6,352 nucleotides of DNA, taken from assembly GCA_027080315.1 (NCBI GenBank), contig JALWSI010000116.1:1-6352 (forward strand), written 5' to 3'. Source of the DNA: a bacterium (GTDB taxonomy: Bacteria > Thermosulfidibacterota > Thermosulfidibacteria > Thermosulfidibacterales > JALWSI01). The notes under the pieces are model-generated. The model ran no database searches. It saw only the letters and a list, made by a program, of their open reading frames with translations, and was not told where the DNA came from. The translations under genes and the position numbers were made by a program. Shown in pieces: positions 3,453 through 6,352 of the stretch (position 1 is its first letter; each line of letters opens with the position of its first letter).

Positions 3453-6074
3453 TTACAGCTGGTACTGAATGCCGAAGCCGATGTAGGTGATGGAGCCATC
3501 ACCGTCGTAGATGTAGTACTCGTCGTCGTCAAACTTATCGTAGTTGAAATTGAAGTTGAGCATCAGCTTGTCAGTGATATGGTAGTTTGCCGACAATCCT
3601 ACCTCTATGGTGCTCATCTCAAGGTCAGAGAAGTCGTCCATCTCGTCAAAGGTTGGATGACCCTCTTCCCACTCCTTGGTGAAAGAGCCCCATGCGTACG
3701 CTTGGGGAGAGGTGGGATTCATTGCCATGAGCTCTGGGATCCGGTTCTTGAAGCTCACATTGTCAAATCCGGCCTTTGAGTAGGTGTAGGTGATGCTTCC
3801 CGTGAAATCCAGCCTCTTGATGGGAGTGAAATTGATAGCAAAGGTGATTGCATGGTAGTCAATGGTGTAATCCACCTCGTCCTTGGCAGCCCCAACCTGG
3901 GGCGTGAAGGTGGAGCCCGCTCACCCGTTGAAGAAGGTGAACCAGTAGTCTGTTGTGGTCTTCTCGTGGTAGAAGTTGTAGGCCAGCGACAGGGTGAGCT
4001 CCTCAACAGGTGACCACCATGTGCTGATTCCCGCGTTGAACTGCTGGCTCTCCCAGGGAGTGTCGTCGTTGTCCTGGTGGGTGTACGAGATCATGGGGGC
4101 GATGGATGCGGTGGGTATGGGCGACCAGTTGAAAGAGAGCTCGGCCTTGTAGGTGTCGCTGGGTTGATTTGTGCCCTCCTGGATCCTGTTCATGGGGATG
4201 AAGAAGTCGGCATAGTTTGATGAGTCTCCTATGTCCAGTGAGCTTGCCCCATGGGTGCATACGCATCCCGGGGGGCTGCAGGTTGGGTTGCAGGTGTTGG
4301 GATACTGGCAGCTGCCATCGGCAGGGAAGCAGAAGTTGGGCGAAAGGGCAGACTGCAGCACCTTGTCCTTCTCTCCCTTGGCGTGGGGGTATTCAAAAGG
4401 ATCGTCGTTGTGCTCGTAGGTGAAGCTGAACCTGCCGTTCAGGTTGGCCATGGGGTAGAAGTAGATGGTGCCATCAATGGTATGGATGGTGGGGTCGCCG
4501 TAGTCGTACTCGTCAAGGTGGTAGTCTGCAGGCACCGGGTTGATGAGGTCGTCTGTGTTGTCCAGGGCGATCTTGTTGTACTCGTCGGTGAAGGCAGCCC
4601 TGTTCTCCCAGTACTGCAGCTTGTTGTCCCTGTCCACCAACTTCAGCCGGTACTCGAGCCTGGTGGTCACATAGGTGTTGAAGTTGTAGTTGGCCGACAG
4701 ATCAAACTCGGTCACGTCCCTGTCGGCAGCAGACTTTCTGTTGTAACCGAAGTTGGTGTCGGGGGCTGCGTTGATGTAACCGTCGTAGCCCCAGTGGCTA
4801 CCGGCGTTTGGCAGCAGGCTGTCGGGAGGATTGGGTGCCCCCCCGGCGTCCTTCACCTTAATGTCGTCTGCGTCTATGGTGTAGTACTTGACGCCTGCGG
4901 TTACGGTCATGTGTTTCACCGGGTGGAAGGTGATGCGTCCCATGGCGCTCTGGTAGGTCTGGTCGATGTCGTGATCAAGCGCCTCGGTGCGGTCCTTGTC
5001 TGTTGCCTTTGAATAGACATACATGCCGGTGAGGTAGGCGTCTTTGAAGATGGCCAAACGCGCCTTCACTGTTTCGGTGTTCTTGTCGGTCTCGGGCACC
5101 CGGGCGAAGGGCAGGCTCTCGTACTGGTAGTTCAGGCGGTTCCCAAAGGTTCCCTCCTCGCCTCCCGGGGGTGGGTAGGCAGTGCCGCCGTACTGAGGAT
5201 CGTATGCAGGGGGATGGTGTGAAAGCTCGTAGAAGTTGTGCATGGTCTCGTCGCTTCTTCTGAAGACCTTGGTCTTGTGGGTGAAGTCAAGGGTGAGGGG
5301 ACCGTGAATGAAGGTGACGCCTCCCTTGTAGATCTGGGTGGTCTGGTTAACCATCTGTGCCTGTGACACTATGTGGCAGCTTGCGCAGTGGCTCATGGTC
5401 ATCACCTGGCGGTTCCCCTTCTTGTTGGTGTAGTGGTAGCCGCCGTGCACGATTATGTTGGGGAAGAATGGAAGCTGCAGCTTGAAGTCGCTGCCGAACC
5501 TCTTGATGCGGTACATGTAGTCTTTGCCAAAGTTCATGTCTGTGTAGCGAAAGGCCTTGGGTCCGTGGGTCTCCCAGGCCACCACATCGTCGTAGCCCGG
5601 GTAGTCAACGAACTTGTAGGAGTCGGGCTGTGGATCGCTGGGGTCGTTGTTGATACCCACAGGTATCTTGAACTGGGGATCGGCCAGGGTTTGAGACTTC
5701 TTGATGTAGGGCTTGTAGAACTCGTCGTGGTCTAACCTGTGTATGAAGCGGTCGTACGACAGGCTGACCCTGAATACCCGCGAGAGATCTAAATCGGCCC
5801 CGGTATAGAGATCATCGTTGTCTTTGTAGTTTCCTGTGAGGTCAAGGTAGAGATTCTCGTTGCTTCCCTCCACCTTGAGCCCAAAGTCGGGGCTCGAATC
5901 TACGCTCTCGTACTCAGCCACCCTGCGTTTCGAGTCGTCTGTTGCGTAGCCGTGGTAACCTGCCGAGAACTCTGCCTTGAACTTAGCAGGTGCCTGGTTA
6001 GCCTCTTCCCCGTAGGATAGCACGGGCAGCACCAGCAAGGCAGCCAGTAAACAGATGGTGATTCGCCTAATCAT
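3453..6074 (-). CDS. MtrB/PioB-type outer-membrane porin with in-frame TGA (possible selenoprotein)
   Basis: Beta-barrel partner of a multiheme cytochrome; the family forms the sheath that lets electrons cross the outer membrane. The product is 873 residues if codon 718 (TGA, 3923-3921) is read through, or 717 if it stops. The start is the ATG at 6074, with AGGAGGT (6087-6081) 6 bases upstream. Residues 1-23 are a signal peptide (MIRRI then a hydrophobic core, cleavage likely after SYG). The rest is alternating polar/hydrophobic strands rich in Tyr, Asn and Asp, with short periplasmic-type turns and long loops. Odd features are a CASCH heme motif (230-234) and six Cys between 582 and 606. After the TGA the same frame runs 155 codons with continued strand patterns ([45 protein letters not shown]) and ends QYQL-TAA, so the downstream part belongs to this barrel. 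Family assignment rests on architecture and the cytochrome partner. The TGA could be selenocysteine, a sequencing error or a recent nonsense mutation. Confidence 0.85.
3871..3914 (-). promoter_or_regulatory. candidate SECIS-like mRNA hairpin
   Basis: In the porin mRNA, starting 6 bases after the in-frame UGA, UCCACCU (3914-3908) can pair with AGGUGGA (3877-3871). Inside this, GCCCC (3903-3899) pairs with GGGGC (3893-3889) around the loop AGGUU (3898-3894). The loop begins 23 bases after the UGA. The published bacterial SECIS pattern is a short stem-loop just after UGA with a G in the first two apical-loop bases, and this fits; the E. coli fdhF loop is AGGUCU. There is no bulged U in the upper stem as in E. 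coli, and GC-rich coding DNA can form such hairpins by chance. Confidence 0.4.
3921..3923 (-). other. in-frame TGA codon, candidate selenocysteine (residue 718)
   Basis: This is the only stop within the 873-codon porin frame. The preceding codons read DYWFTFFNG and the following ones [10 protein letters not shown], with no frame change. By strand alternation the position falls in a long loop between strands [12 protein letters not shown] and [14 protein letters not shown]. One base change separates TGA from Cys, Trp, Arg, Gly, Ser or Leu codons, so error or mutation remains possible. Confidence 0.45.
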
Positions 6075-6085
6075 CTTTCCACCTC

Positions 6086-6352
6086 CTATCGGGTAAGTCT
6101 GCGGCCCATACCCGGCCTGGTGTTAGAGGGAAGATTGGATCCGTGAATCTGGCTGTGGCACTCGGTACACTTGGTGGTCATCACCTGCTGAATGTCGTTC
6201 ACCTTGCCTATGCCGTAGTTGGTGTTTCCAGAGAGGCCAGAGTGGAAGTGCATGTGGTGGCACTGAAGACAGATGAACGGCTCGTTCTGCTTGAGCATGT
6301 TGTTTGCCACGGTGCCGTGGGGCTGGTGACAGATGTCGCAGTTCTCCTCCAC
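6086..6352 (-). CDS. multiheme c-type cytochrome C-terminus, MtrA/PioA/DmsE type (partial)
   Basis: The last 88 residues of a larger gene that begins beyond the right edge; the GTG at 6352 is just a codon at the boundary, not a supported start. Three CXXCH heme sites are visible: CDICH (5-9), CLQCH (28-32) and CTECH (62-66). Their following histidines, in HQPHG, HHMHFH and SQIHGSN, are candidate distal ligands. The order CxxCHxPHG, then CxxCH, then CxxCHxxIHGSN near the end is typical of the periplasmic decaheme cytochromes that dock in MtrB/PioB barrels. It should therefore carry electrons from the periplasm into the downstream porin. The TAG stop (6088-6086) overlaps the porin ribosome site, with 11 bases between the genes, so they are one operon and probably translationally coupled. 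Total heme number cannot be seen. Confidence 0.88.

Follow-up and report, generated by a model that had tools for sequence, protein, structure and literature searches.

A 6,352-nucleotide stretch of bacterial genomic DNA (referred to as the window, meaning the whole stretch analysed) carries on its minus strand a gene for an MtrB/PioB-type outer-membrane barrel whose reading frame is interrupted by a TGA codon. The question raised by this locus is whether the TGA terminates the protein or is decoded as an amino acid and, in the latter case, whether the protein represents a family that is new to science. The first-pass annotation had described the barrel frame as broken at codon 718 alone and continuing for 155 codons to TAA. 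A re-reading of the frame agrees: the gene starts with ATG at 6074, TGA 3921-3923 is codon 718 and the sole in-frame stop among the 873 codons, and 155 sense codons follow before TAA at 3453-3455. Sequence comparisons lead us to conclude that the UGA is very probably read as selenocysteine (Sec), a confidence that covers the decoding and excludes the role of the residue. The features of the locus are:

3453..6074, minus strand: MtrB/PioB-type outer-membrane barrel of the GSU2204 family (NF041027), 873 residues with Sec718.
3921..3923, minus strand: TGA, very probably read as selenocysteine, residue 718, in the motif FFNG-U-AG (from the aligned TGA in homologs and the sel genes).
3889..3903, minus strand: SECIS-like hairpin GCCCC-AGGTT-GGGGC, with the first loop base 22 nt past the TGA.
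5373..5387, minus strand: CASCH, a CXXCH heme-c-binding motif, residues 230-234, invariant together with Sec718 in 49 aligned homologs.
6086..6352, minus strand: upstream gene for a GSU2203-family decaheme c-type cytochrome (NF041028), of which the window holds the 3' end (88 codons).

The Pfam model MtrB_PioB (PF11854) matches residues 643-866 of the barrel with 34.4 bits (cut-off 23), and because this match runs across the TGA, the distal frame belongs to the same domain. Conservation of the codon itself in homologs shows that its occurrence is more than chance. Within the order to which the genome belongs, the barrel gene of every genome with a match contains a single TGA, located at the aligned codon; the window's own genome has a paralog (contig C196) that shares this TGA, as do all ten aligned A1 proteins. 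Searches beyond the order with the NCBIfam model NF041027 detected homologs in other phyla, while one further phylum searched with this model yielded matches below the cut-off only. Altogether, about 56 distinct homologous DNA sites from several phyla, with a few near-duplicates among them, have TGA at the aligned codon, and two homologs (L119, 390.4 bits, and L120, 355.5 bits; cut-off 350) have Cys, encoded by TGC. The genomes of both Cys homologs hold a TGA paralog as well. In two diverged homologs the Sec site is occupied by Ser or Gly and the motif is lost, and the more distant barrels L122-L129, which score under the NF041027 cut-off, are without the Sec loop. Eleven columns are invariant across the 49 aligned homologs, including C230, C233, H234, G717 and residue 718, the last being Sec in 48 rows and Cys in L120. 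The next in-frame stop past the Sec site, counted in 55 genes, is TAA in 28, TAG in 15 and TGA in 12.

The machinery for selenocysteine insertion, which the first-pass annotation had suggested looking for, is present in full in the window's genome: selA (630.8 bits) adjoins selB (376.5 bits) on contig C208, selD scores 378.2 bits, and selC is represented by a tRNA-Sec with anticodon TCA (UCA) scoring 83.5 bits. The metallo-hydrolase gene in the window stops at TGA 2593-2595, which had been taken as an argument against global reassignment of the codon; TGA likewise closes selA, selB and an EF-Tu-like gene of this genome at the expected end of the protein. With TGA serving as the ordinary stop in these four genes, a change of the genetic code is unlikely. 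As a separate observation, selD (L029, G000:C61) is itself a selenoprotein gene, with an in-frame TGA in the context SGUGAK and a GC-rich inverted repeat after it.

The SelB protein and tRNA-Sec would decode UGA codon 718 under the guidance of the hairpin located about 22 nt downstream. We assessed this hairpin by a bacterial SECIS model (PMC13188914), requiring a stem of 5 bp or more and agreement with the loop and distance rules. The window hairpin fits the model with its loop at 22 nt, or 23 nt when the A-U pair within the loop is included. Such a hairpin is found in 55 of the 56 TGA genes, in every case 20-23 nt downstream of the TGA; the same minimum score is reached by 23% of background positions, and a score of at least 16 is attained by 71% of the TGA sites versus 3% of the 8554 background positions taken from these genes. 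In the Cys genes L119 and L120 the hairpin is absent or weak. Covariation in the stem amounts to 0.402 in 16 sequences (0.113 after shuffling) and 0.410 in 51 sequences (0.120 after shuffling), slid controls are lower, and the pair at columns 23-33, for example, occurs as GC 18 times, CG 17 times and AU 11 times. None of 300 synonymous recodings that preserve the protein gave a hairpin as good as that of the window; across the 56 genes this control gives p < 0.05 in 39, and 17 fail at 0.05. The free energy of the window hairpin alone is unremarkable (z 0.68), and an Rfam search for SECIS gave no match.

Other explanations of the TGA can be weighed against these observations. A true stop would make the gene a decaying or truncated pseudogene, consistent with the use of TGA as an ordinary stop elsewhere in the genome; given the aligned TGA in so many distinct homologs across phyla, a distal frame that is kept and contains no other stop, and a hairpin that covaries, we regard this as highly improbable. 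Without decoding, the barrel would be missing 5 of the roughly 26 strands predicted for it, and its assembly would be improbable. Genome-wide reassignment of UGA to an ordinary amino acid could account for the in-frame TGA being read through both in the barrel and in selD, but it is hardly conceivable in a genome where selA, selB, the EF-Tu-like gene and the metallo-hydrolase stop at TGA, where the Sec machinery is complete, and where TGA is kept at a single codon of the barrel gene with the hairpin adjacent. A sequencing or assembly error at 3921-3923 might be suspected in a fragmented assembly of the metagenome type (253 contigs); however, the TGA recurs in the genome's own paralog and in assemblies obtained independently, and since independent relatives carry the same codon, such an error is very unlikely, to the point of being negligible. 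Decoding as selenocysteine is the reading that we retain.

A different kind of alternative concerns novelty, namely that the UGA is decoded as Sec and the family is nevertheless new, as the first-pass annotation proposed. Weak matches to general MtrB_PioB models (TIGR03509, for example, gives 22.5 bits, well under its cut-off of 240) and a literature search that returned no functional study of the Sec speak for this view. Against it, the window barrel matches NF041027, named "GSU2204 family CXXCH-containing (seleno)protein", with 413.8 bits (curated cut-off 350), as do all 10 A1 members at E<=0.001, and residue 717 pairs with the final position of the model (580/580), so that the model stops exactly before Sec718. 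In addition, an MtrB/PioB-family outer-membrane beta-barrel selenoprotein is listed in a 2022 review (PMC9312934) and, under NF041027, in a 2026 review (PMC13188914). Two of the primary papers that the 2026 review cites make no mention of MtrB in their main text. Judging from where the NF041027 model ends, the Sec of the protein listed in these reviews probably occupies the same site as Sec718. The chance that the family is new is therefore slim: the selenocysteine part of the original proposal stands on the machinery, the aligned TGA with its Cys counterparts, the covarying hairpin and the use of TGA as a stop elsewhere, the claim of a new family is rejected, and the window barrel is a well-supported new member of the catalogued GSU2204 selenoprotein family.

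The genomic context is in line with this assignment. The window barrel shares with the GSU2204 family both the CXXCH motif and the GSU2203-family decaheme cytochrome partner, an association that exists in Geobacter, and is longer than the NF041027 model family by roughly 100 residues, some of which form a Cys-rich insert. The NF041028 model matches the 88-codon cytochrome fragment with 126.5 bits (a partial match) and the full-length neighbours of the barrels L041 and L044 with 436.7 and 471.5 bits, respectively (cut-off 325). From the matches to NF041027 and NF041028 it follows that the locus is the known GSU2203/GSU2204 gene pair, here in a lineage for which we found no earlier description; we know of no other described example of the GSU2204 family in this order. 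No MtrC-like gene was recognised beside the cytochrome/barrel pair when the open reading frame lists of L041 and L044 were inspected by eye. In Geobacter, transcripts of GSU2203 and GSU2204 are up 2.7-fold and 2.4-fold with hematite, and 1.7-fold and 1.5-fold with magnetite (PMC4070692).

By homology, the decaheme cytochrome and the MtrB-like barrel would form an MtrAB-like electron conduit across the outer membrane; what is seen directly is the gene pair. A structure model of the barrel built from ten sequences has 26 strands, with short turns alternating with long loops, at low confidence (mean pLDDT 54.4, and below 50 for residues 710-730). Among PDB structures it is matched best by 6r2q_B, the MtrB chain of the Mtr complex (E 3.2e-19; runner-up 5e-10), while a sequence search of the PDB with the barrel gave no match. 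The window barrel resembles Shewanella MtrB (MtrAB/MtrCAB, 6r2q chain B) in its 26 predicted strands and its decaheme partner gene, at 11% identity over the structural alignment. To our knowledge, Shewanella MtrB has neither a Sec residue nor a CXXCH motif in the barrel.

Counting back from the last strand of the model, the loop with Sec (714-728) and the one with CXXCH (227-235) lie on the same long-loop side, which we take to be extracellular, a placement that derives from strand counting in a low-confidence model. Sec718 would then sit in a predicted extracellular loop on the side of the invariant CXXCH, most likely as a low-potential selenol redox site or a site contacting metal or heme where the conduit opens to the outside. 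The invariant columns and the predicted loop placement suggest a role that is heme-linked or acceptor-facing. A more specific proposal, namely that Sec and the invariant CXXCH heme motif make up a joint redox site at the extracellular mouth, is offered tentatively and we consider it rather unlikely; if it were true, Sec might, for example, be in contact with the iron of the heme or with the terminal acceptor, and selenium would serve extracellular electron transfer in a way for which the literature searched gave no description. A further parallel is ExtKL of Geobacter, a multiheme cytochrome selenoprotein (PMC5877670), which is likewise a Sec-containing component of a gene cluster related to extracellular electron transfer; compared by description, ExtKL is a five-heme cytochrome whereas the window protein is a barrel. 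Apart from ExtKL and the catalogue listings, we found no literature on Sec in porin-cytochrome systems, and for the GSU2204 family the searchable literature goes no further than the listing. Beyond what the catalogue entries consulted show, the present analysis finds that the Sec site is constant from phylum to phylum, that a SECIS-like element covaries, that Cys paralogs occur naturally and do without this element, and that Sec and the heme motif are invariant together; on this footing the role of Sec in extracellular electron transfer can be put to a direct test.

Several minor observations concern variation within the family. The window barrel is 73% identical to L040 and 70% to L041, whose genomes are placed in another phylum, and 62% identical to its order-mate L003, all four being in one clade; the higher identity to the proteins from another phylum suggests horizontal transfer. 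The Cys-rich insert, at about residues 592-620, is found among the ten A1 proteins only in the window barrel and L003, which is of the window subtype. In L041, one of the 12 genes with TGA as the next stop, this TGA comes early, where the frame appears shifted; the last part of the gene (8149-8457) appears frameshifted, and the C-terminal end goes on in another frame. In the Cys paralog L119 (G440:C87:18500-21300), a TGA lies in frame 90 codons before the Cys, in the context SGYUTKSGSNVP, and may reflect error, decay or another cause. Finally, the family includes two subtypes, YFNG/FFNG-U-AG and LFGG-U-GG-like, both with Sec, and several genomes (G000, G006, G104, G408, G444 and G480) contain the two together.
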